From NCBI RefSeq assembly GCF_024298905.1, contig NZ_CP101154.1:3312932-3376931 (forward strand): DNA of 64,000 nucleotides, given 5' to 3'. Positions 10,772 to 55,545 of this stretch are shown in pieces. Below the pieces are notes generated by a model. It did no database searches, was not told where the DNA came from, and saw nothing but the letters and a program-made list of their open reading frames with translations. Position 1 is the stretch's first letter, and each line of letters starts with the position of its first letter. Source of the DNA: Natronomonas marina. GTDB lineage: Archaea > Halobacteriota > Halobacteria > Halobacteriales > Haloarculaceae. The position numbers were made by a program, and so were the translations under genes.

Positions 10772-12136
10772 TCAGACCGGACGGCGGATGTACTCTCCGT
10801 GCCCCGCCTCGCCCACGACCTCGCCGTCCTCGTAGGCGACCTCGCCGCGGACGATCGTCTGGGTCGGCCAGCCCGTGACCGACATCCCCTCGTAGGGCGT
10901 GTAGTCACAGCCGCTCTGCAACAGTTCGGTCGTGACGGTCTTGGTTTCGTCGAGGTCGACGACCGCGAGGTCGGCGTCGCTCCCGACGCGTATCGTTCCC
11001 TTCTTGGGGAACACGTTCCAGGCTTTTGCCGTGTTCGTGCTCGTCACTTCGACGGCGCGCTCCAGCGAGATGCGGCCCTCGTTGACGCCCTCCGACAGGA
11101 TCAACGGCAGCATCGTGGTCGTTCCGGGGAACCCCCACAGCGAGTCCCAGATGTCGTCCCCGATCTTCTCGTCGGTGTCGTTCGGACAGTGGTCGGTCCC
11201 GATGCAGCTTATCGTCCCGTCGGCCACCCGTTCCCAGAGCACCTCCTGGTGGCGCTCGTCCCGCACCGGCGGGTTGACCTTCGCGCGGTCGTCGGCTTCG
11301 CTCGTCGTCAGCGCCAGGTAGTGCGGACACGTCTCGCCGGTCGTGCGATAGCCGGCCTCCCGGAGCGCCGCGATCTCGTTTGCCGTCTCCTTCGAGCTAA
11401 TGTGGACCGCATAGAAGCTGTCGTCGTAGTCGTGTTGGCGCGTAAGTGCGCTGCCGGCGACCATGCTCTGGGCCTCCGCTCGCCCCGGGAACGCATCGAC
11501 CAGTGACGCGTACTCGTCGCGGCCCGACGCCTTCTCGTGTTCTTTCAGTGGGGTCGTGATCTCGGCGTTCTCGGAGTGGTACGCGAGGGTCGTCGATTCC
11601 TCTCTGGCCGCCAATCGGGCGACGAAATCGTCGATACGGCCGTCGAATATGGAGCCGTCCTCCGGGCCCTCGCCGTCCTTCCGGACCGGGAACCACTTGA
11701 AGGTCGTGACGCCCCACTCCTCGATGGCGCGGTCGACCATCGAGACATCGGGTATCGAGGTGGGGTCGAGCGTCAGGAAGTAGTCGTGGTAGTAGCGGCC
11801 CTCGGCCTCCTCGAGGTACGTGGGCACGAACTCGTCCCAGAGTCCGCGCTGGAACGAGAGCATGACCCCGACAGTCGTGACGCCACCGACGAGGTCGGAG
11901 CGAGACTCGGCGATAGCGTCCGTCGTGAACTCCCTGTAGATGCCGTGGTGGGTGTGCGGATCGATCGCCCCCGGGAGGACGTACTTTCCAGTCGCGTCGA
12001 CTTCGGTGTCACCGCCGAGGGTTCCGGGAGCGGCTACGTTCGAAACGACGCCGTCGTCGGCCGCGATGTCGGCCTCGAACCGTCCCTGTTCCGGGGTGAC
12101 GACGGTCCCGTTACTGACGACGAGGTCGTGACTCAT
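10772..12136 (-). CDS. Dihydropyrimidinase/hydantoinase-family cyclic amidohydrolase (copy 1)
   Basis: 454 residues from the ATG at 12136 (MSHDLVVSNG). These enzymes open cyclic amides such as hydantoins, dihydropyrimidines, allantoin or cyclic imides at a two-metal site. Visible ligands: His61 and His63 (DPHTHHG), Lys153 as candidate carboxylated lysine (FKWFPVRK), His187 (AYHSEN), His245 (YAVHIS) and Asp315 (CIGTDHC). Its ATG overlaps the stop of the isochorismatase gene by four bases (ATGA), so translation is coupled. The 3' part (10919-11111) is about 94% identical in DNA to the second copy at 24587-25987 while the 5' part is much more diverged. True substrate unknown. Confidence 0.9.
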   Translation of the reverse strand: MSHDLVVSNGTVVTPEQGRFEADIAADDGVVSNVAAPGTLGGDTEVDATGKYVLPGAIDPHTHHGIYREFTTDAIAESRSDLVGGVTTVGVMLSFQRGLWDEFVPTYLEEAEGRYYHDYFLTLDPTSIPDVSMVDRAIEEWGVTTFKWFPVRKDGEGPEDGSIFDGRIDDFVARLAAREESTTLAYHSENAEITTPLKEHEKASGRDEYASLVDAFPGRAEAQSMVAGSALTRQHDYDDSFYAVHISSKETANEIAALREAGYRTTGETCPHYLALTTSEADDRAKVNPPVRDERHQEVLWERVADGTISCIGTDHCPNDTDEKIGDDIWDSLWGFPGTTTMLPLILSEGVNEGRISLERAVEVTSTNTAKAWNVFPKKGTIRVGSDADLAVVDLDETKTVTTELLQSGCDYTPYEGMSVTGWPTQTIVRGEVAYEDGEVVGEAGHGEYIRRPV

Positions 12137-12798
12137 GCGACCTCCTCGAGGTACGTTTCGGCCTCGCTTCGATCGACGACCTCGGCGTACTTCATCCAGA
12201 GGTCCAGCAGCGCGATCTTGTGAGAGGCCTCGATGCGGTCGAAGACGCACTCGGTCGGAACGACGACGTCGAAGCCGTACTGTTTTCCGTCGATCGCCGT
12301 CGCCCGAACACAGCCGCTCGTCGAGTTACCCACGACGATGATCGTGTCGATCCCGTCCCGGACGAGCCGCGACACCAGATCGGTCCCGAAGAACGCACTC
12401 GCGTAGGACTTGTCGAGTACGAGGTCGTCCTCCTCGGGTGCGATGGGATCGACGATACGGAGGTCGTCGTGGTCCGGATCGTCGTAACTCTCCGGGATGA
12501 CTCGCGTGTAGGTGATCGGCACGTCGCTCTCGCGGGCACTGTCGAGGAACGGGGCGATGTCGTCGAGAGCGTCGTGGGCGACCGAACCCATCGAGGAGCT
12601 GTTGAACTCCTGGATCGACTCGAGTATCGGTACGTCGTCACCGACGATGAATCGCTGCATGTCGATGACGAACACCATCGGGTTGTCGCCGAGTCCCCGC
12701 GACTCCCAGACCTTCGCGCCTTCCTCGTCGTAGCCGCCCTTCGTGATGACCTGTTGGTCGCGCTCGGTGAGCAGATCCTCCCAGATTCGTGTAGTCAT
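12133..12798 (-). CDS. Isochorismatase-like cysteine amidohydrolase
   Basis: 221 residues, one cysteine-hydrolase domain with the full triad: Asp46 (VIDMQ), Lys130 (LDKSYASAF) and Cys163 (GNSTSGCVRATA). This is the pattern of N-carbamoylsarcosine amidase, ureidoacrylate amidohydrolase (RutB) and maleamate amidase (NicF), which cut linear amides or carbamoyl groups. Being coupled (ATGA overlap) to a ring-opening hydantoinase, it most likely hydrolyses the linear amide or ureide product. An N-terminal extension of about 40 residues before the core is common in carbamoylsarcosine-amidase relatives. Confidence 0.9.
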   Translation of the reverse strand: MTTRIWEDLLTERDQQVITKGGYDEEGAKVWESRGLGDNPMVFVIDMQRFIVGDDVPILESIQEFNSSSMGSVAHDALDDIAPFLDSARESDVPITYTRVIPESYDDPDHDDLRIVDPIAPEEDDLVLDKSYASAFFGTDLVSRLVRDGIDTIIVVGNSTSGCVRATAIDGKQYGFDVVVPTECVFDRIEASHKIALLDLWMKYAEVVDRSEAETYLEEVA

Positions 12799-12832
12799 TG
12801 TAGTTCGGGTCCAACGGTACGGACACGCAGTC

Positions 12833-12845
12833 GGATATTAAATCT
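12833..12845 (-). promoter_or_regulatory. TATA-like box for the isochorismatase-hydantoinase operon
   Basis: AGATTTAATATCC on the minus strand lies 35-47 bases before the ATG at 12798, within the 83-base gap after the LLM gene. It could give the operon a promoter separate from that of the SnoaL-LLM pair. Confidence 0.4.
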
Positions 12846-12881
12846 TGGCGTGCGGGACGTTTCCCCCGGTCCTGAACCGAC

Positions 12882-13886
12882 CTATTCGGGAGCGAGTGCC
12901 TCGTACGTTTCCTCGACGAGCGCCGGATCACCACCGGCGGGCCGAATAATCGGCATGTTCACCCCGGCATCGCGGAGCGTCTGGAGTTTGTCGGCCGCCT
13001 CCCGAGGCGTGCCGACGACCGCGACGATGTCGAGATACTCCTCGGAGATGGCGGTCGCAGCGGCGTCGAGACTCGAGGCGTTCCTGGCGGCCTCGACGTC
13101 GTCTTCGAACCCCGATTCCACCGCCACCCGATCGTAGTAGCCCGGAATGGACCGGAAGTAACGAGCGACGTGCTTTGCGGCAACCTGGCGGGCGTGCGCC
13201 GGATCCTCGGAGACCGCCCCGAGCACGTACATCGCCACGTCGATATCACCGATATCCCGACCGGCACGTTCGGCTCCCTCCGCGAGCCACGACTGCGCTT
13301 CGTCGAGTTTCTCGCGGGGATAGAGGTTCGGAAGCCAGCCGTCCGCGTACTCTCCCGTCAGACGGACGTTACCCGGACCGAGAGCCGCATTGTAGATCGG
13401 TATCTCGCCGCGCGTCGGCTCGAAGGACTCCCAGAAGCTGGCTCGACCGGGCGAGTAGAACTCCCCGTCGAACTCCTCGCCGGACCCCGCGAGGTACTTT
13501 CGTATCAGCGTGATGTATTCGACCATGCGTGGGAGCGGCCTGTCGAACTCCATTCCGTGGAACTCCTCGACGACGCCGGGATGGGCCACGCCGAGGCCGA
13601 GGATGGCGCGGCCGTCGGAATGCTCGTCCAGCGTCGCTATGCCCTGCGCGATCGCCGCGGGGCTGCGGGAGAACACGTTGACGATACCCGTCGCCAGTCG
13701 GATCCGGTCCGTGACGGTCGCCCACCGTTCCAGTTTGCCGAACGCGGTCTTTCCCTGTCCCTCTGCCGCCCAGACGCTGTGGTAGCCCAACTCCTCGACG
13801 CGCTGGACCAGGTTCATGTCGTCGTCGAGCGCGATGGAAACGCCCAAACGCTCCTCGCCGTCCCCGGTGTCGGATTCGTCGACCAT
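12882..13886 (-). CDS. LLM-class flavin/F420-dependent oxidoreductase
   Basis: 334 residues from the ATG at 13886, one base after the stop of the SnoaL-like gene; a GTG at 13895 overlapping that gene is an alternative start. The luciferase-like fold is shown by ELGYHSVWAAEG near residue 30, LATGIVNVFSRSP near 64-76 and RAILGLGVAHPG near 94-105. Many haloarchaeal members use F420, others FMN. Beside an isochorismatase it recalls the RutA/RutB pair (flavin pyrimidine oxygenase plus ureidoacrylate amidase), but the overall similarity looks closer to F420-dependent enzymes. Confidence 0.87.
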   Translation of the reverse strand: MVDESDTGDGEERLGVSIALDDDMNLVQRVEELGYHSVWAAEGQGKTAFGKLERWATVTDRIRLATGIVNVFSRSPAAIAQGIATLDEHSDGRAILGLGVAHPGVVEEFHGMEFDRPLPRMVEYITLIRKYLAGSGEEFDGEFYSPGRASFWESFEPTRGEIPIYNAALGPGNVRLTGEYADGWLPNLYPREKLDEAQSWLAEGAERAGRDIGDIDVAMYVLGAVSEDPAHARQVAAKHVARYFRSIPGYYDRVAVESGFEDDVEAARNASSLDAAATAISEEYLDIVAVVGTPREAADKLQTLRDAGVNMPIIRPAGGDPALVEETYEALAPE

Positions 13887-13887
13887 C

Positions 13888-14274
13888 TCAGGCACCCGGT
13901 TCGACGATTCCCTCGGAGGCGAGGTCGTTCCAGATGTCGAGACGCGTTATCTCGCCATCGCTGACCGAGTAGACGTCGATGTAGCGGACGTCGGAGAACG
14001 CATCACCGTCGTTATTTACCCCGTAAAGACGCCCGATACTTGCTACCTCCGACCCCGACTGGATCCATCGGTCGAACTCCTTGTCGACCCACTCGAGCCG
14101 CTGACCGACCGCCTCGACGAACTCTTCGGCCGCAGTGTCGCCGACGAACGTCCGCCCCGGCCGTGTTATTACCGCCCGGTCCGCGAACAGTTCGCCGACG
14201 GTCGCCTGCGTTTCGGGGTCGCTCATCCGCTCGAAGAACTCCTCGACGACGGCTCTCGGATCTGACTCCGTCAT
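13888..14274 (-). CDS. SnoaL/NTF2-like protein (copy 1)
   Basis: 128 residues forming a single NTF2-like cone fold (SnoaL-like family: polyketide cyclases, limonene-epoxide hydrolase relatives, ring-hydroxylase beta subunits). N-terminal helix VVEEFFERM, then AVITRPG and the strand-rich C-terminal half VRYIDVYSVSDGEITRLDIWNDL. It is a paralog of the protein at 23947-24321. It heads the SnoaL-LLM pair, suggesting a substrate-binding or isomerase/hydrolase role on the same compound. Reaction unknown. Confidence 0.85.
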   Translation of the reverse strand: MTESDPRAVVEEFFERMSDPETQATVGELFADRAVITRPGRTFVGDTAAEEFVEAVGQRLEWVDKEFDRWIQSGSEVASIGRLYGVNNDGDAFSDVRYIDVYSVSDGEITRLDIWNDLASEGIVEPGA

Positions 14275-18952: not shown

Positions 18953-20248
18953 ATGCCTAAGGATACTACAAACCGGCGTGTAATGTTGAAGCGACTCGGT
19001 ACCGGACTGACCACGGGCGCGTTGATCGGTATGGCGGGGTGTACCGGCAACGGCAATGGAAACGGGACCGGGAACGGCAACGGCAATGGAAACGGCAACG
19101 GCAACGGGAACGGCAACGGCAATGGCAACGGCAACGGGGGTCAATCCATCGAGTGGCGCCACGGAACCGGGTTCTCGGAGGCCGGGAACAACAAGGACGC
19201 CACCGACCCATCGCATCTCTGGGAGCTGAGCCGCCGGCTCGAGGAGTCGACCGACGGGCGAATCAGTATGCAGGTGATCGGTCAGGGCGAGATCTGTGGG
19301 TTCGCGGACTGTGGGGAGAAACTCCAGGCTGGCGTCGTAAACTCGGCGTCCTCGTCGCCGGCTAACTCCCACAAGCAGTGGCCGCCGCTGCACTTCTGGG
19401 TGATGCCGTACCTGTTCCCGGGGGACAACATCGCATCGATAAACGCGACCATGTTCTCCGAACAGCTCTGGGAGGAGTACTGGGTCCCGTTCGCACAGCA
19501 GTACGGCGTCCTGCCGTTTCTGCCCGAGGAGGGGCAGTTCCGCTGTGTATTTATCGGGACCGACGCAGCATCGGGCGTGGATGGGCGCATCCGTCTTCCG
19601 GAACAGATCGAGGACATGGACATCCGAAGAACGTTCAGTCGGATGTCCGCCCAGGCCATCAGTTCGTGGGGTGCCAACCCGGTCGAAATCGCCTTCGCCG
19701 ACACGCTGCAGGGAATGCAGACCGGTGTCGTCGACGGGATGGAAATATGGCCGACGGCGCACGCCGCGTTCGGATTCCCCGAGGCGACCGCCCAGGCGGT
19801 CATCAACAACTGGGCGATGGGTATCGAGCCGAACTGGATTCGAGTGGACTTCCTCCAGCAGTTTTCGGAGGAAGACCTCCAGATGCTGGGCGAGGAAACC
19901 AAGGCGCTCTCCGAGGAGTGGGTGCGGGGAACCGACGAGTTCAACGAGCAGCGCGCCGGCGTCTCGGACCCGCCGCCGTCCGGCTCGAAGTACGCCGAGA
20001 ACGACGTCACGGTCAACATACTCGACGACGACGAGCTACAGGCCTGGCAGGGCGAACTCGATCTCAAGGACAACCCCGACCAGTACTCGCAGGTGTACGA
20101 GGAGACGGAGCGACTCGACGCCATCGACGATGGACAGGCGTTCATCAACATGGTCTACGAGAAGGCCCGCTCCAGCAGCACCCCGACGACGACGGACGAC
20201 TTCACGTACGACGTCTGGTGGCACGACTACCTCGACGAAATCCTGTAA
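18953..20248 (+). CDS. dctP: TRAP transporter substrate-binding lipoprotein (DctP family)
   Basis: 431 residues from the ATG at 18953 (a TTG two codons upstream is less likely). The N-terminus has a twin-arginine motif (NRRVMLK) and a lipobox ending at Cys30 (GMAGC), so it is exported by Tat and lipid-anchored outside the cell. Residues 31-63 are an almost pure Gly-Asn repeat acting as a flexible tether. The DctP domain follows, with the central arginine region (FRCVFIGTD, then MDIRRTFSRM) and GMQTGVVDGMEIWP that bind the substrate carboxylate in this family. The ligand is likely an organic acid. The membrane subunits follow at 20317 and 20857. Confidence 0.93.
   Translation: MPKDTTNRRVMLKRLGTGLTTGALIGMAGCTGNGNGNGTGNGNGNGNGNGNGNGNGNGNGNGGQSIEWRHGTGFSEAGNNKDATDPSHLWELSRRLEESTDGRISMQVIGQGEICGFADCGEKLQAGVVNSASSSPANSHKQWPPLHFWVMPYLFPGDNIASINATMFSEQLWEEYWVPFAQQYGVLPFLPEEGQFRCVFIGTDAASGVDGRIRLPEQIEDMDIRRTFSRMSAQAISSWGANPVEIAFADTLQGMQTGVVDGMEIWPTAHAAFGFPEATAQAVINNWAMGIEPNWIRVDFLQQFSEEDLQMLGEETKALSEEWVRGTDEFNEQRAGVSDPPPSGSKYAENDVTVNILDDDELQAWQGELDLKDNPDQYSQVYEETERLDAIDDGQAFINMVYEKARSSSTPTTTDDFTYDVWWHDYLDEIL
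19041..19140 (+). repeat. Gly-Asn-encoding hexanucleotide repeat
   Basis: Imperfect tandem units of GGCAAC/GGAAAC/GGCAAT/GGGAAC, six bases each and about 16 copies, encode the Gly-Asn linker of the binding protein. Such runs expand and contract by slippage, so linker length is likely variable between strains. The unit stays in frame because its length is a multiple of three. Confidence 0.8.
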
Positions 20249-20316
20249 GCGTTTTCAACGTTCGTCGTACAGATTATAAGTTATAAGTGAGAGTACAACA
20301 TGAATCTGAGTGAATC

Positions 20317-20856
20317 ATGGAACTGAACGTGTCTCGCATCGCACGCGACGTCGAACGCAATCTCGAGGGGTACGTAAGCACGGTGCTGATGCTATCGTAC
20401 ACGGCGATCATCCTGTACACGGTAGTCCTTCGGACACTGGGCATCCAGATACAGCAGCTGTACATCCAGGAAGTCGTCATCGGGGGTTTCATCTGGCTCG
20501 GGTGGCTGTCGGTGTCGTACGTCATTCGGACCGACGGTCACCTGCGTTTCACCTACTTCAGCAAGGACTACTCGGCACGGAAAACGTACGTCGTCTACGT
20601 CGTCGAGTGGATCTGCTGGCTGGTGTTTGCAGGGATCATCTTCTGGTTCGCTCTCGACGTGCTTCAGACGCGTATCGATTCCGGCGGGAGGATTACAGGG
20701 ACGGACGTCCCGTCGTATCTGCTGTATCTCTCCGTGCCGGTCGGTTTCGGGATGATCCTACTCCGCGTTCTACAGCAGGCCGTGATCGTCACGAACCAGT
20801 TCCGAAGGGGCAAAGAAATAGGAATCGCGGAAAACCCCGAGGCTCAGGACGTATAG
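20317..20856 (+). CDS. dctQ: TRAP transporter small membrane subunit (DctQ)
   Basis: 179 residues with four hydrophobic helices (about 23-42, 48-66, 92-112 and 132-152), the DctQ topology. The GGFIWLGWLSVSYVIRTDGHLRFTYF region between helices 2 and 3 resembles the family signature. It lies 68 bases after the binding-protein gene and its stop TAG is directly followed by the ATG of the large subunit. Confidence 0.9.
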   Translation: MELNVSRIARDVERNLEGYVSTVLMLSYTAIILYTVVLRTLGIQIQQLYIQEVVIGGFIWLGWLSVSYVIRTDGHLRFTYFSKDYSARKTYVVYVVEWICWLVFAGIIFWFALDVLQTRIDSGGRITGTDVPSYLLYLSVPVGFGMILLRVLQQAVIVTNQFRRGKEIGIAENPEAQDV

Positions 20857-22146
20857 ATGCTCGAGTTAACCATCGGGCAGGTGATGATCCTGCTGACGAT
20901 ACTGAGTGTCATCCTTTTCGTGTCGGGCGTCTCCATCGCACTGGTGTTCGGCATCTGGGCCGTCGGTTTCACTTACTTCTCCCCGATCTTCCCGTTCGTC
21001 AATATGTCGCTGGTCGCGTTCAACGAACTGAACACGTTCCCGTTCGTGGCGATTCCGATCTTCATCGTCGTCGGCTCGTTGATCAACAAGGTCGGGATGG
21101 CCACTCGAATCATCGATTTCACTCGCTCTATAGGCGGGTGGCTCCCCGGAAGCACCGGGAACACCTGTATCTACACGGCGGGCGTATTCTCCGCCATTAC
21201 GGGATCGAACGCCGCGACGACCGCCTCCGTCGGTGAAGCGCTGTACGACGATCTCGTCGACGAGGGATACGACGAGGACTTCGCAGCGGCGACGATCGCC
21301 TCGGGCGGCACGCTCGGGATCATCATCCCACCGAGCGTCCTGTTCATCATCTACGGGATCACGTTCGGCGTGTCCGTCTCACAGCTGTTCATCGTCGGGA
21401 CGATCCCGGGGATCATGATGATGATCAGCCTGTCGGCGACCGCGAGTATCATCGCGTACCGGCGGGGCTACGGCACGTCCGAGTTTTCGTTCAGTGTCCG
21501 AAACATCCTGCAGAGTACGTGGGGCGCCAGGAACGCGTTCATCACGATCGGGTTGTTGATCGGCGGAATATTCCTCGGCGTGTTCACGCCGTCCGAGTCC
21601 GCGGCGGTGGCGTTCACGTACATCCTGGGGGTCGGGCTCTTCGGTAGCTCGATTCAGAACCTCCGTGAACTCGTCGAGCCGTTCCTCACGTCGATCCAGG
21701 TCATGGGGATGATCATCCCGATCTTCGTGTCCTCGGTGATGATCCAGCAGGGGCTCTCGTTCTTCAACCTCCAGACGGTCGTCGCCGATCTGATCATGTC
21801 GCTCGGCCACCCTGCCCTGATATTCGTCGGTATGATCGTCGTGATGCTGATCAGCGGCTCCATACTCGACTCCGTCCCGAACATGATCCTCACTGCACCG
21901 CTGCTCGCGCCGGCGGCGTTTTCGCTGGGTCTGGATCCGCTGACCTGGGCGGTCGTGTTCATGATCAGCGACGCGATCGGCTTCATCACCCCGCCCTACG
22001 GACTGAACCTCTACATTATCAGCGGGATGGTCGATCTGGACTACATCGACGTCGCCTACGCGGCGCTTCCGTACCTGGTCGCGCTGTGTATCGTCTGGAT
22101 CCTCTTCTTCGCCTTCCCGGAGTTGAACGTCCTCTCGCCCGTGTGA
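20857..22146 (+). CDS. dctM: TRAP transporter large membrane subunit (DctM)
   Basis: 429 residues with about 12 hydrophobic segments, the ion-coupled translocation subunit of the TRAP system. Typical blocks are FPFVAIPIFIVVGSL, FSAITGSNAATTASVG, GGTLGIIIPPSVLFIIYG and the C-terminal DAIGFITPPYGLNLY. Its start directly abuts the DctQ stop, so translation is coupled. Together with DctP and DctQ it makes a complete sodium-driven importer for a carboxylate, matched to a halophile's Na+ gradient. Confidence 0.93.
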   Translation: MLELTIGQVMILLTILSVILFVSGVSIALVFGIWAVGFTYFSPIFPFVNMSLVAFNELNTFPFVAIPIFIVVGSLINKVGMATRIIDFTRSIGGWLPGSTGNTCIYTAGVFSAITGSNAATTASVGEALYDDLVDEGYDEDFAAATIASGGTLGIIIPPSVLFIIYGITFGVSVSQLFIVGTIPGIMMMISLSATASIIAYRRGYGTSEFSFSVRNILQSTWGARNAFITIGLLIGGIFLGVFTPSESAAVAFTYILGVGLFGSSIQNLRELVEPFLTSIQVMGMIIPIFVSSVMIQQGLSFFNLQTVVADLIMSLGHPALIFVGMIVVMLISGSILDSVPNMILTAPLLAPAAFSLGLDPLTWAVVFMISDAIGFITPPYGLNLYIISGMVDLDYIDVAYAALPYLVALCIVWILFFAFPELNVLSPV

Positions 22147-23946: not shown

Positions 23947-24321
23947 TCAGGTGACGCCATCGACGATGAGATCGTTCCAGATGTCGAGCCGCCGTATGAG
24001 CCCGTCATCGACCTCGTAGACGTCGACGTACCGGACGCCGGAGAAGCCTTCGCCGTCATTGTCCTCCCCGTAGAGGGTTCCGATGCTTATCGCCGCCTGG
24101 TCCGTCTCGATCCACCGGTCGAAGTCCTTCGCGGCCCAATCGTATCGTGGGTCGTAGTGTGCGAGAAACGCCTCGGTTGCGCCCGGCCCCTCGAACCGCG
24201 CACCGGGGACCGTTATCACCGCGTCGTCTCCGACCAGTTCGTCGACGGTGTCCCGTCGTTCGTCCTCCAGACGGTTCAGAAACTCCTCGGCAATCTCTCT
24301 TGGCGTCGGCTCGAATACCAT
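23947..24321 (-). CDS. SnoaL/NTF2-like protein (copy 2)
   Basis: 124 residues, a single NTF2-like domain paralogous to 13888-14274: both share DFDRWI or EFDRWI, SIG-LYG, VRY-DVY and RRLDIWNDL or TRLDIWNDL in the C-terminal half. It is convergent with the MmgE/PrpD gene and divergent from the second hydantoinase. Two copies, each near a hydantoinase, suggest duplication of a functional unit. Function unknown. Confidence 0.82.
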   Translation of the reverse strand: MVFEPTPREIAEEFLNRLEDERRDTVDELVGDDAVITVPGARFEGPGATEAFLAHYDPRYDWAAKDFDRWIETDQAAISIGTLYGEDNDGEGFSGVRYVDVYEVDDGLIRRLDIWNDLIVDGVT

Positions 24322-24446: not shown

Positions 24447-24590
24447 ATGACTCGACAACTGCCGCCGAACCGCTGTGCCGACACGAGCGACGATGTCCGC
24501 CGAACGGTGCGGTGGCGTATCGATAGCGACCGATCCGTCGCGGGGTTGGGTGGGGTTTCTCCCGTTCGAACGTACGGGGGCGAGCGATGA
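24447..24590 (+). CDS. Possible 47-residue small ORF coupled to hydantoinase 2
   Basis: ATG at 24447, stop TGA at 24588-24590 overlapping the hydantoinase ATG by four bases (ATGA). The peptide MTRQLPPNRCADTSDD... is basic and Arg-rich with one cysteine, unlike typical acidic haloarchaeal proteins, so it may be a leader or coupling peptide rather than a folded protein. The support is positional: promoter spacing and the ATGA overlap. It may also be chance. Confidence 0.35.
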   Translation: MTRQLPPNRCADTSDDVRRTVRWRIDSDRSVAGLGGVSPVRTYGGER

Positions 24591-25987
24591 GGCACGATCT
24601 AGTTATCGCCGACGGTACTGTCGTCATCCCGGGTGACGGGACGATACGTGCTGACGTTGCGGCCGATGATGGCACCATCTCGGCCATCGCGCGACCGAAC
24701 ACGCTGTCGGGTGCCAGGATCGTCGACGCATCCGACAAGTACGTCCTGCCGGGTGCGATCGATCCCCACACGCACCACGGCATCTATCGGGGCCTCGAAG
24801 CGGATGCCGAAAGCGAGTCCCGTTCCGACCTCGTGGGCGGCGTCACCACCATCGGGAACTTTTTCCGGCGCGCTGGATCGTACGAGGACATTATGGAGAG
24901 CTACTTCGCCGAGGCCGAGTCGAATTACTATCACGACTACTTCTTCTCGCTCGGACTCCTCTCGTTCGAGCACATCGACGAGATCCCGCTGATAATCGAC
25001 GACCTCGGTATCACCTCGTTCAAGTGGTATATGAACTACAAGTATGCGGCGGCGGAGAAGTTCGGCGTCGACTGCGAGATGCGCGACGACTTCGGTGACG
25101 CACTCGTCAAGACACTGGCTGCACAGGACGCCCCGACGACGCTCGGCTACCACTCGGAGAACGTCGAAATAACGAACGCGCTTTCGGGTGGCAACGTCTA
25201 CATCACGTCGGAAACCGAAGACGACGAGAGCGACTCTGGCGAGGGGTACGAGGTGATGGTCGAGGAGTTCCCCGACTACGCCGAGATGCAGAGTATGGTC
25301 GCGGGTGCGGCGCTGGCGAAGGCCCACGACTACGACGACAGCTTCTATGCGGTCCACATCTCCGCCGGTCGAACTGCCGACGAACTCGCGGCACTCAAGA
25401 CGGCGGGATACGATCTCCGAGGCGAGACCTGTACACACTACCTCACACTGACGACCGAAGAGTGCGACGAGCGGATGAAAGTGAACCCTCCGGTTCGGGG
25501 GCAGTCGGACCGGGAAACGTTGTGGGACCGGGTGGCCGACGGCACCATCAGCTGTATAGGGACGGATCACTGTGCAAACGTCTCGGCGGACAAAATCGGG
25601 TCGGGAATCCGGGATAGTGCCCTCGGGTTCCCGTCGAGTTCGACGATGCTGCCGTTGATCCTGTCGGAGGGCGTCAACGAGGGTCGCATCTCGCTGGAGC
25701 GCGCCGTCGAAGTGACGAGCACGAACACGGCGAAGGCCTGGAACCTCTTCCCGAAGAAGGGGACGATACGCGTCGGGAGCGACGCCGACCTCGCGGTCGT
25801 CGACCTCGACGAGACCAAGACCGTCACACCGGAACTGCTGCAGGGTGCAGCCGACTACTCCATCTACGATGGGCGCGAAGTCACAGGGTGGCCGACGCAT
25901 ACGATCGTCCGCGGCGAGGTCGTCTACGAAGACGGCGAAATCGTCGGTGAAAAGGGGCACGGGACCCACATCGACCGGCCGATCTGA
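24587..25987 (+). CDS. Dihydropyrimidinase/hydantoinase-family cyclic amidohydrolase (copy 2)
   Basis: 466 residues, paralog of 10772-12136. The metal site is intact: His61/His63 (DPHTHHG), Lys152 (FKWYMNYK, the canonical position of the carboxylated lysine), His189 (GYHSEN), a histidine in YAVHIS and the Asp of CIGTDHC. The HHG after the first motif and ESRSDLVGGVTT are shared with copy 1. The stretch 25649-25843 is about 94% identical in DNA to copy 1. An insertion around residues 202-216, rich in Glu/Asp, distinguishes it. The partner amidase is not adjacent here; a DUF3891 gene follows. Confidence 0.9.
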   Translation: MRHDLVIADGTVVIPGDGTIRADVAADDGTISAIARPNTLSGARIVDASDKYVLPGAIDPHTHHGIYRGLEADAESESRSDLVGGVTTIGNFFRRAGSYEDIMESYFAEAESNYYHDYFFSLGLLSFEHIDEIPLIIDDLGITSFKWYMNYKYAAAEKFGVDCEMRDDFGDALVKTLAAQDAPTTLGYHSENVEITNALSGGNVYITSETEDDESDSGEGYEVMVEEFPDYAEMQSMVAGAALAKAHDYDDSFYAVHISAGRTADELAALKTAGYDLRGETCTHYLTLTTEECDERMKVNPPVRGQSDRETLWDRVADGTISCIGTDHCANVSADKIGSGIRDSALGFPSSSTMLPLILSEGVNEGRISLERAVEVTSTNTAKAWNLFPKKGTIRVGSDADLAVVDLDETKTVTPELLQGAADYSIYDGREVTGWPTHTIVRGEVVYEDGEIVGEKGHGTHIDRPI

Positions 25988-26117
25988 TCGGACCCCAACG
26001 GCCGCGACGCTCGGATACCAGGCCCGTTGTCGTTCGCGTCCTTTGGCGACGGAGGCACAAGAGCAAAGCACCTCCCCGAGCAACTGTGACCATGTTAGCG
26101 AACGAGAGGGCCCGACA

Positions 26118-26957
26118 GTGTTAGCACCGGAGCGTGCGGACGGATACCATATCGTCGCACAGAACGAACACGCAGTCATGGCCGGTCGGTTCGCCGATAA
26201 CTGGGGCACCGACCGCGTCGAAGCGCCGAAGCCGAACGCGGCAATGTGCGCGGCCGGGTACGCCCACGACAACGGCTGGTGGCCCTGGGATCTGTACCCG
26301 CACCTCCGGGAGGACGGTGCACCGGTCGACCTATTCGAGGTCCCGACCGAGAACTGGATACAGTTCTACGAACGGGGCATCGAGAACGCGGTCGAGATGG
26401 ATCCGTACGTCGGTCTGTTGGTTTCGATGCACGGCGCCGGCATCCGTCGCCAGCGCTACGGGACCGCTCCGGGAATGACCGACCGACAGCAGCAGTATGC
26501 GGAGTTCGTCACCCGCGAGGAGAACCGGCAGCTACGTCTCGGGAAGGAGCTCCGTCGTTCGGACCGGTACGGCCCGTACGTCACGGACGAAGCGCTCGAC
26601 ATGCTCGACACGCTTCACCGTACCGGGACCTACGACGGAGACAACCCGCTGTGGCGGAGCTACTGTCTGCTCCAGGCGTGGGATCAGCTCTCCCTTCGGT
26701 TCTGTCTGTATCCGGCACTGGAATCGACGACGCTTGGACCCGTTCCAGCTACTGACGGCGATCAGGTGGACATCAGCGTTACACCGGTCGACGACACGAC
26801 GGTCACGCTGGATCCGTATCCGTTCTCGGTCGACCCTCTCGTTGTCCCCGTCCGAAAGCGAGTGATCCCGGCCCGCGAGTACGCCACCGCGGCCGAACTC
26901 CGCACCGCCTACTACGAGGCCGACCTCCAGACGACCGACTTCACACTACAAGAGTAA
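26118..26957 (+). CDS. DUF3891 family protein
   Basis: 279 residues. I chose the GTG at 26118 because the family begins with a short strand followed by a helix ending in H-A, here VLAPERADGYHIVAQNEHA; the longer upstream frame overlaps the hydantoinase gene and has no similarity. Conserved parts are AHDNGWW near residue 50, YERGIENA, DPYVGLLVSMHGAGI near 96-110 and LLQAWDQLSL near 195. The His/Asp-rich pattern resembles HD-like or metal-binding helical proteins. Biochemical role unknown; family members often neighbour hydrolases. Located 130 bases after hydantoinase 2, probably in the same transcript. Confidence 0.82.
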   Translation: MLAPERADGYHIVAQNEHAVMAGRFADNWGTDRVEAPKPNAAMCAAGYAHDNGWWPWDLYPHLREDGAPVDLFEVPTENWIQFYERGIENAVEMDPYVGLLVSMHGAGIRRQRYGTAPGMTDRQQQYAEFVTREENRQLRLGKELRRSDRYGPYVTDEALDMLDTLHRTGTYDGDNPLWRSYCLLQAWDQLSLRFCLYPALESTTLGPVPATDGDQVDISVTPVDDTTVTLDPYPFSVDPLVVPVRKRVIPAREYATAAELRTAYYEADLQTTDFTLQE

Positions 26958-41545: not shown

Positions 41546-42958
41546 ATGAACGTCCGCGTCCGGGGCATCTACACCACGGCCCTGACGGAGTTGCTCGGCG
41601 CCGACCACGAGGTGGTCCAGGCGTCGCCGCCCATCCGCGAGCGGTTCGACCGCGCCTTCGAGGTCGCGCCGGCGGACGCGACCGTTCGGACGACCGACGA
41701 CCGGCAGGGCGTCGGCGTCGCGGGCGACCCCGAGGCCGTCGGAACCCTCCGGGAGCGCCTCCGGGCGGTCGGCCGGGACGCCTTCGCCTGGCCGAACCCC
41801 GCACCGCGCGGGGCGGTGTTCTACGGCACCGTCACCGAGACGCTCGGTTCCGGCGCGCTGGTCGACCTGGGGCGCGTCGACGACCGCTCCGTCGAGGGAT
41901 TTCTCCCCTACGACCGCGTCGAGGGCTACGTCGAGGAGGGCGACGACTACCGCGTCCAGGTCGCCTCGCCGGAACCGCCGTGGAGCGACGCCCGGCCGTC
42001 GCTGGCGACGGACCTCCGGGTGCCGGGCGGCCTGGTCGAACTCCGCCGCGGCGACGGCCGCGCGGGCGGGGAGACGGCCCGGATGGCCGATCTCCTGCCC
42101 GTCGACCCGCCGGAGGGGTGGGCGCCGCGGTGGGCGCGGGCAGCCGACGACGCCTCCCTCGACGCGATGGCGGCGGCGCTGGAACGGGCCGGCGACCGCG
42201 CCGAGGAACTGATGGCCGCGGTCGCCAACGCCGACGGCGAGGAGCCGGGGCGGGTCGTCGCACCGCAGGCCGGCGCCTGGGTCTGGTTCGGCCGCGAGTC
42301 CCGCTTCGAACTCGACGCCGTCCGCGAGCGGGTCACGACCACGATGCCCGGTCACCACCGGGTCAAGGCGGGCGCCGACGGCGCCAGCACCGCCGTCGAC
42401 TTCGCCGAGGCGGTCCGCGGACCCACCGACGGCGACGCCGAGTGGACCGACGACGGGTTCCCCTTCGGGGCCGTCGCCGGGCAGTTCGGACCCCGAGAGG
42501 GCGGGTCCGTCGCCATCGCTCACGGCAAGCCGAGCGGCCGGACCATCACGCTCGGGCGCGGCGAGGTGGTGGAGCGGGACGACGAGGACGGCTCCGTCAC
42601 CGTCGAGCGGGAGATGTCGGCGGGCGGCACCTACGACGCCCTCGACATCGAGCGGCGCGAGGGCGACGTCGCACGGACGACGTTCGTCGAGGGCCGGTGG
42701 TGGTACGCGACGGTCTACGAGGGCGAGGAGGGCCAGCGGCGCGGCACCTACGTCAACGTCTGTACGCCCGTGGAGGTGTTCCCCGACCGCGTGAAGTACG
42801 TCGACCTGCACGTCGACGTGGTGAAACTGCCCGACGGCGAGATTCGGCGGGTCGACGACGACGAACTCGACGCCGCCGTCGACGAGGGACTGGTGACCGA
42901 ACCGCTCGCCGAGCGCGCCCGCGAGGTGGCCGTCTCCATCGAGAACGCGCTCCAGTGA
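41546..42958 (+). CDS. FAU-1-type RNA-binding/ribonuclease protein
   Basis: 470 residues. The N-terminal half resembles the S1-like RNase E/G region (VRGIYTTALTELL near 4-16, GAVFYGTVTETLGSGALVDLG near 87-107). The C-terminal third is a DUF402 domain (VTVEREMSAGGTYDALDIERR, RGTYVNVCTPVEVFPDRVKYVDLHVDVV). FAU-1 of Pyrococcus binds AU-rich RNA and has been linked to rRNA processing; the same cytoplasmic role is likely here. The full domain set is intact. Confidence 0.88.
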   Translation: MNVRVRGIYTTALTELLGADHEVVQASPPIRERFDRAFEVAPADATVRTTDDRQGVGVAGDPEAVGTLRERLRAVGRDAFAWPNPAPRGAVFYGTVTETLGSGALVDLGRVDDRSVEGFLPYDRVEGYVEEGDDYRVQVASPEPPWSDARPSLATDLRVPGGLVELRRGDGRAGGETARMADLLPVDPPEGWAPRWARAADDASLDAMAAALERAGDRAEELMAAVANADGEEPGRVVAPQAGAWVWFGRESRFELDAVRERVTTTMPGHHRVKAGADGASTAVDFAEAVRGPTDGDAEWTDDGFPFGAVAGQFGPREGGSVAIAHGKPSGRTITLGRGEVVERDDEDGSVTVEREMSAGGTYDALDIERREGDVARTTFVEGRWWYATVYEGEEGQRRGTYVNVCTPVEVFPDRVKYVDLHVDVVKLPDGEIRRVDDDELDAAVDEGLVTEPLAERAREVAVSIENALQ

Positions 42959-43035
42959 CGGCTCTTTCGTTCCGTCGACACGAGTAGTGTTGCCGCACAC
43001 TACGGTTTATGTGGCGCCAGTTCCTACGCCCGTCC

Positions 43036-43281
43036 ATGAGCAGCGAGGGCGTCGACGCCGAGAGCAAGGTGTCGGGGAACCAGGCGAACATCCCGGCACA
43101 CATCCGTCGGGAACTCGACATCGACGACGGCGACCGACTCCGCTGGCACGTCGAGGACGACGGGACGATCCGCGTGCGGGTCCTCCAGCAGCGCAGCGGC
43201 ACGTTCGACGAGTTCGGCGGCTACGACGGGGACCGGACGACGGCGGTCGAGGACGAACACGATGGGTGGGGCGTCGAGTAG
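43036..43281 (+). CDS. AbrB/MazE-type antitoxin (module 1)
   Basis: 81 residues from the ATG at 43036. A swapped-hairpin DNA-binding domain is seen at residues 10-50: KVSGNQANIPAHIRRELDIDDGDRLRWHV. The acidic C-terminal tail should contact the toxin. The PIN-domain gene begins at the base after its stop (TAG then ATG), the classic antitoxin-toxin order with coupled translation and autoregulation expected. Confidence 0.87.
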   Translation: MSSEGVDAESKVSGNQANIPAHIRRELDIDDGDRLRWHVEDDGTIRVRVLQQRSGTFDEFGGYDGDRTTAVEDEHDGWGVE

Positions 43282-43716
43282 ATGCCGCGAGCGGTCGTCG
43301 ATACGACGGTGCTCTTCGCGGCGGCGTACCGCCGCGACGGCGCCCACGACCGGGCCCTCCCCATCCTCCGGGGCATCGACACCGCGGCGCTCCCGGAAGC
43401 GGTCGTTCTCGATTACGTACTCGCGGAGACGCTGAACGGCCTGACGACACACGCGGGCCACGAGGCCACGGCCGACTTCCTCGACCGGGTGGAGGAGAAC
43501 GCCCGGTTCCACGTCGACGGCCTGACGAGCGACGCGTTCGCCACGGCCAAGGCGCTGTTCCGGCGGTACGAACGGTTCTCGTTCGTCGACGCCTGTATCG
43601 TCGCGTACATGCAGGCGGAGGGGCTCGGGTACCTCTACTCGCTGGACGACGATTTCGACGCCGCCGAGGACGTCTACCGTCTCGACACACCCACCAACCC
43701 CTACCAGCCGGAGTGA
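43282..43716 (+). CDS. PIN-domain toxin, VapC-like (module 1)
   Basis: 144 residues. The four PIN acidic positions are in place: Asp7 (VVDTTVL), Glu49 (LAETLNG), Asp103 (FVDACIVAYM) and Asp122-124 (YSLDDDFD). VapC proteins are Mg-dependent RNases cutting tRNA or rRNA. It shares spacing and LFRRYERFS-type blocks with the second module at 56877-57305, so the two are paralogs. Confidence 0.88.
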   Translation: MPRAVVDTTVLFAAAYRRDGAHDRALPILRGIDTAALPEAVVLDYVLAETLNGLTTHAGHEATADFLDRVEENARFHVDGLTSDAFATAKALFRRYERFSFVDACIVAYMQAEGLGYLYSLDDDFDAAEDVYRLDTPTNPYQPE

Positions 43717-55089: not shown

Positions 55090-55545
55090 ATGGCTCCGCT
55101 CGATCCCGGCGACCCCGCACCCGACGTCGAGGCGCCGAACCAGCACGGCGAATCCGTCAGTCCCGACTTCGAGGTCCCGACGGTGCTTTACTTCTACCCC
55201 GAGGACGACACGCCCGGCTGTTCGATGGAGGCCGACCAGTTCGCCCGCGAGGCCGACGCCTACGAGGACGCCGGCGTGGCCGTCTACGGCGTCTCCACCG
55301 ACGGCGTCGACTCACACCGCGCGTTCGCCGACGCACGGGGTGTCGAGTTCGACCTGTTGGCCGACCCCGACGGCGAGGTCATCGACGCGTTCGGCGTCGA
55401 GCGCGACCCCCAGGGTCGTGCGAAACGCACGACGTTCGTCCTCGCGGACGGCGCGGTCCACCGCGTCTACACCGCCGTCGCCCCGGACGGCCACGCCCGC
55501 GACGTTCTCATGGACCTGCTGGACGACGGCCTCGTGTCGCTGTGA
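55090..55545 (+). CDS. Peroxiredoxin, BCP/PrxQ type (copy 1)
   Basis: 151 residues from the ATG at 55090. Thioredoxin fold with the peroxidatic Cys44 in YPEDDTPGCSMEA. The resolving cysteine usually five residues later is absent and no other Cys is present, so it works as a 1-Cys enzyme needing an external thiol. Detoxifies hydrogen peroxide and organic peroxides. A second copy follows 51 bases downstream. Confidence 0.92.
   Translation: MAPLDPGDPAPDVEAPNQHGESVSPDFEVPTVLYFYPEDDTPGCSMEADQFAREADAYEDAGVAVYGVSTDGVDSHRAFADARGVEFDLLADPDGEVIDAFGVERDPQGRAKRTTFVLADGAVHRVYTAVAPDGHARDVLMDLLDDGLVSL

Follow-up and report, generated by a model that had tools for sequence, protein, structure and literature searches.

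How did two old and widely diverged hydantoinase paralogs come to share a nearly identical stretch of about 200 bases, and why have other parts of the two genes stayed apart? The genes, A and B, are separated by about 12.5 kb and lie in opposite orientation in the window, the 64-kb stretch of Natronomonas marina DNA that we analysed (Table 1). Both match D-hydantoinase/dihydropyrimidinase models well under the curated cut-offs; the TIGR02033 D-hydantoinase equivalog, which has a cut-off of 393, is missed by both A (274 bits) and B (250 bits). The scores mark both as related to that equivalog, and A and B are D-hydantoinase/dihydropyrimidinase-like cyclic amidohydrolases. The metal ligands of B (H61, H63, K146, H189, H257 and D327) are invariant in the alignments, including A, and the predicted model of B (pLDDT 89.5) has the D-hydantoinase fold of a barrel and a beta-sandwich, with TM values of 0.86–0.88 against the solved hydantoinases 1k1d, 1yny and 3sfw. 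Orthologues of B reach 82% identity, and searches of the genus, family, order, class and GTDB contigs returned no closer orthologue of A above about 64% identity.

Table 1. Coordinates in the window of the two hydantoinase genes, their probable conversion tracts and the gene adjoining A
Feature	Position	Strand	Remarks
Hydantoinase paralog A	10772..12133	-	453 aa; ATG at 12133
Hydantoinase paralog B	24587..25987	+	466 aa
Isochorismatase-like hydrolase	12133..12798	-	Stop overlaps the ATG of A
Probable converted tract in A	10916..11116	-	Codes for the final barrel helices and first strand of the C-terminal beta-sandwich
Probable converted tract in B	25643..25843	+	B residues 353-419; 94% identical to the A tract

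In a codon alignment, the two tracts (A read from 11116 to 10916) differ at 12 of 201 bases and contain exact-match runs of 41, 47 and 50 nt, and just 30/60 and 38/60 positions match in their 60-bp flanks. Ten of these changes are synonymous; the encoded amino acid differs at two positions. The first-pass annotation had reported about 12 mostly silent differences in about 190 bases, between blocks some 14.5 kb apart in opposite orientation. All of this held, with 181 of 193 positions matching between the minus strand of 10919–11111 and 25648–25840; its coordinates on the B side (25649–25843) were off by 1–3 bases. It had also described the remainder of the genes as far more diverged, a description that the full comparison bore out. 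Instead of uniform high identity along A and B, we found 94% identity at nucleotides, 87% at third positions and 97% at amino acids inside the block, compared with 64%, 50% and 57%, respectively, outside it. Likewise, dS between A and B was 0.23 in the block and 0.8–1.7 elsewhere. None of 5,000 shuffles of codon columns reached the best A/B segment (p 0.0002), and shuffling amino-acid-identical degenerate codons alone gave p values between 0.00015 and 0.006 for the various mismatch penalties. A self-BLAST of the window also singled out the A/B pair. An assembly artefact is unlikely given the 12 scattered differences and the near-complete two-contig assembly.

One possible explanation for such a block, which requires no recombination, is that protein conservation peaks there and codon use is biased, so that any two paralogs would look alike in this stretch. 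Consistent with this explanation, no segment of the family is better conserved than the block (0.89, compared with 0.70–0.82 for the others), and in many comparisons third positions are somewhat more similar within it. However, third-position identity between A and B in the block is higher than that of either gene to every other homolog; B ranks first among 52 homologs to A in consecutive windows inside the block only; and orthologues with 82% protein identity reach just 72% at third positions in the block. We also measured an excess, defined as block identity beyond that expected from a regression on identity outside the block, fitted to 1,271 unlinked homolog pairs. The A–B block lies 0.22 above this expectation, and its identity is higher than that of all 1,271 pairs. 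Conservation would also not predict the pairing of paralogs by genome in the trees described below, and family conservation does not predict which segments of the genes are homogenised (Spearman -0.32, p 0.09). On the evidence of the silent sites, the tree and this missing correlation, we rejected conservation or codon bias alone, an account that we regard as highly improbable.

Linked pairs in other haloarchaea provided independent cases. In three genomes of the same family (G074, G143 and G086) and one of another family (G477), a second paralog stands in tandem with a B orthologue, the two start points being 3.6–5 kb apart; together with the present genome (G000), these four make up the linked-pair set. 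The block limits were set from A and B alone and then tested in the four other genomes. Paralogs of one genome were 99% identical in the block in G143, 93% in G074, 93% in G477 and 85% in G086, and block identity for pairs drawn from different genomes of the five ranged from 76% to 89%. Mean block identity was 0.925 within genomes and 0.837 between them (exact partner permutation, p 1/120). The block excess, in standard deviations, was 6.0 in G000, 4.9 in G143, 3.2 in G477, 2.6 in G074 and 1.7 in G086. Because the excess in G086 is weak, the count of five out of five leans partly on tree topology. A tree of the 201-nt block paired the paralogs by genome in all five cases (G000, 97/96; G074, 100/99; G143, 97/90; G477, 97/91; G086, 95/92), and the block rejected a clade of second paralogs (AU p 4.6e-5). 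By contrast, in the rest-of-gene tree the four second paralogs formed a single clade (100/100). The pairing test on the rest of the gene, which covered G000, G074, G143 and G477, rejected A with B (AU p 0.00064) and the pairs of G143, G477 and G074 (p-AU 0.0001–0.0002). The tract is thus sharp, silent sites show it too, and its tree disagrees with that of the remaining gene sequence; the block has been homogenised independently between linked paralogs in at least three haloarchaeal genomes beyond this one. A separate recent duplication in each genome was rejected, since outside the patches the second paralogs group as a single clade. The homogenisation of the block in the linked paralogs of other genomes also means that it is a recurrent phenomenon rather than a one-off.

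Two comparisons served as controls. Paralogs of G443, which lie on different contigs and are the single unlinked control of this kind, showed neither a block excess nor pairing in the tree. The isochorismatase paralogs that adjoin the hydantoinases showed no within-genome excess, and therefore proximity alone is not the cause. These results strongly favour ectopic gene conversion between the two old paralogs as the origin of the block, a process that has recurred and would be filtered by selection keeping their specificities apart; we consider this very probable. The suggestion of gene conversion or a recombinational patch made in the first-pass annotation is accordingly supported by the block tree and the rest-of-gene test, whereas its description of the event as recent is only partly right: the A/B block has since accrued about 0.23 synonymous changes per site, compared with 0.02 in G143.

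It is also possible that a third source, either incoming homologous DNA or a paralog since lost, fed both genes, or that A arrived as a chimera by horizontal transfer. The locus looks mobile, as a search of 19 other genomes in the genus found no close homolog of either hydantoinase, and the A block fits B-type homologs better than the remainder of A does. GC3 in B is 0.93 in the block and 0.79 in the remainder, the largest shift among the genes compared. The G143 and G086 orthologues (L011/L012 and L032/L033), contrary to most other comparisons, are less alike in the block than in the remainder (0.86 versus 0.91 and 0.84 versus 0.88), possibly through import of the block from elsewhere. However, the simplest donor of a patch common to two linked genes is each other, the pattern repeats in the tandem pairs, and this genome has no third hydantoinase copy; we therefore think an outside source unlikely. 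As for the direction of conversion between A and B, the block tree places the pair among B-type sequences, which suggests a B-type source, whereas the GC3 shift looks as if B were the recipient, at odds with that position. GC-biased conversion was rejected as a general cause, since the paired genes show no overall rise in GC3 within the block (mean difference 0.006).

To ask why only parts of the genes are alike, we looked beyond the block. In the tandem pairs, homogenisation also extends to the N-terminal segment (B residues 1–53), a middle segment (229–281) and the C-terminus, but not to B residues 54–228 and 282–352. With segment limits that, apart from those of the block, were drawn from the data after inspection, the third-position excess within genomes was 0.22 (N-terminal), 0.13 (middle), 0.17 (block) and 0.12 (C-terminal), compared with 0.03 and 0.04 in the two barrel segments. 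The pairs are thus not homogenised over their full length, and the barrel segments keep the second-paralog clade (100/100 and 100/99 for alignment columns 60–235 and 290–359). In the model of B, homogenisation maps to beta-sandwich strands, one section of the barrel and its last helices, whereas five of the six metal ligands lie in the protected parts, which also include the regions aligned with SGL1 and SGL3, the stereochemistry gate loops of known hydantoinases (PMC7175128). Between tandem paralogs, dN comes close to dS or exceeds it in places within the protected segments, compared with a dN/dS of about 0.2 between orthologues in the same segments. We infer that selection removes conversion tracts that enter the substrate pocket, keeping the specificities apart.

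Another possibility is that the patch is kept alike because A and B share an oligomer interface, with selection for compatible subunits in putative hetero-oligomers. In the Pseudomonas aeruginosa enzyme, dimer–dimer contacts involve residues 13-15, 253, 306-307, 354-386 and 467-468 (PMC5832032). In an approximate alignment from match end points, these contacts fall mostly in homogenised segments, and prokaryotic genes that evolve in concert include an excess of complex members (PMC6053082). However, contacts 306-307 sit in a protected segment, the interface varies between species (PMC5832032) and the A/B hetero-oligomer is itself putative. Selection on a common interface therefore seems to us rather unlikely as the reason for the patch. 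We attach a similarly small chance to a combined scheme, in which lasting, segment-restricted conversion would hold scaffold and interface in common, allowing one oligomer to combine two specificities, and selection would purge tracts in the pocket.

Returning to ectopic conversion filtered by selection, the process may begin with RadA-type homologous recombination without crossover between the A and B loci, on the same or sister copies of the polyploid haloarchaeal chromosome. Conversion could hit the whole gene, and selection would then purge tracts that overwrite the barrel segments setting substrate specificity. The outcome would be N-terminal, middle and C-terminal scaffold segments that are homogenised and catalytic-pocket segments that remain diverged. 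Because a crossover would delete the genes between the members of a tandem pair and flip the interval between A and B, the surviving events are probably of the non-crossover kind; inversion of the segment between the A and B blocks, raised in the first-pass annotation, is mechanistically possible.

Such events have counterparts in Haloferax volcanii, in which gene conversion has been demonstrated and is efficient (PMC11276520) and near-identical paralogs have been shown to recombine (PMC6063281). The intermolecular conversion described there is haloarchaeal machinery and the likely engine here, although it acts between alleles and equalises genome copies, whereas the hydantoinases are diverged paralogs (PMC11276520). 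Similarly, sod1 and sod2 are separated haloarchaeal paralogs that recombine, but these genes are near-identical, and a crossover between 600-bp identical direct repeats split the chromosome (PMC6063281); the hydantoinase tracts are short, probably non-crossover and lie between diverged genes. The closest precedent is mtrA-1/mtrA-2 of methanogens, also archaeal linked paralogs in which long-lasting gene conversion, recurrent in several lineages, has homogenised one domain while another part diverged (PMC4632066). The diverged part of mtrA stems from domain shuffling and fusion (PMC4632066), whereas the hydantoinase genes are collinear, their diverged parts are internal barrel segments, and one pair is inverted and widely spaced. 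Full-length concerted evolution has been reported for 26 prokaryotic genes, in which, as here, within-species paralogs are more alike than orthologues and the pattern recurs across species and is ascribed to gene conversion (PMC6053082). Those cases, unlike the hydantoinases, cover nearly the whole gene. That genome-wide survey took nearly full-length cases only, named part-of-sequence cases as future work and does not mention hydantoinases in its main text (PMC6053082); part-gene concerted evolution is little documented in prokaryotes. The phenomenon is of a kind already known, domain-restricted concerted evolution, and the hydantoinase pairs are a new member with unusually good internal controls. 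They provide naturally replicated cases, complete with controls, in which selection probably opposes conversion in enzymes of known fold, and they caution that gene trees and annotation drawing on the C-terminal part of hydantoinases can be misleading.

The genes around A and B look like a catabolic cluster: they encode an isochorismatase-like hydrolase, an F420-type luciferase-like oxidoreductase, SnoaL-like proteins, an FAD enzyme, PEP mutase and aconitase family proteins, a TRAP transporter and MmgE/PrpD. Related clusters occur patchily in haloarchaea. At 10772–14274, isochorismatase, LLM and SnoaL genes adjoin A and not B; elsewhere (for example, L039) such genes flank B-type hydantoinases, and the closest relatives of the isochorismatase-like gene are those adjoining B-type hydantoinases in other genomes. 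Because B-type neighbours are found beside A and not B, A may have taken the ancestral place of B. SnoaL-like paralogs at 13888–14274 (minus strand, near A) and 23947–24321 (minus strand, near B) share about 73% DNA identity along 178 bases. The G+C content of the window is 58–66% over positions 1–28000 and mostly 69–72% over 28000–64000, with the catabolic cluster in the lower-GC part; this location, together with the absence of the hydantoinases from the other genomes of the genus that were searched, suggests an acquired island. The longest form of a DUF3891 open reading frame (25845–26957, plus strand) begins within B, but the DUF3891 domain is not reached until residue 96, and the true start therefore probably lies downstream from B. 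In another genome (G446, contig C7; L165), two B-type hydantoinases with identical match scores lie about 22 kb apart in opposite orientation (20002–21396, minus strand, and 42141–43535, plus strand), reflecting either a large inverted duplication or a feature of the assembly. The window also contains local direct repeats of 75–86% identity at 55099–55379/55603–55883, 39081–39160/39138–39216 and 19045–19086/19093–19134.
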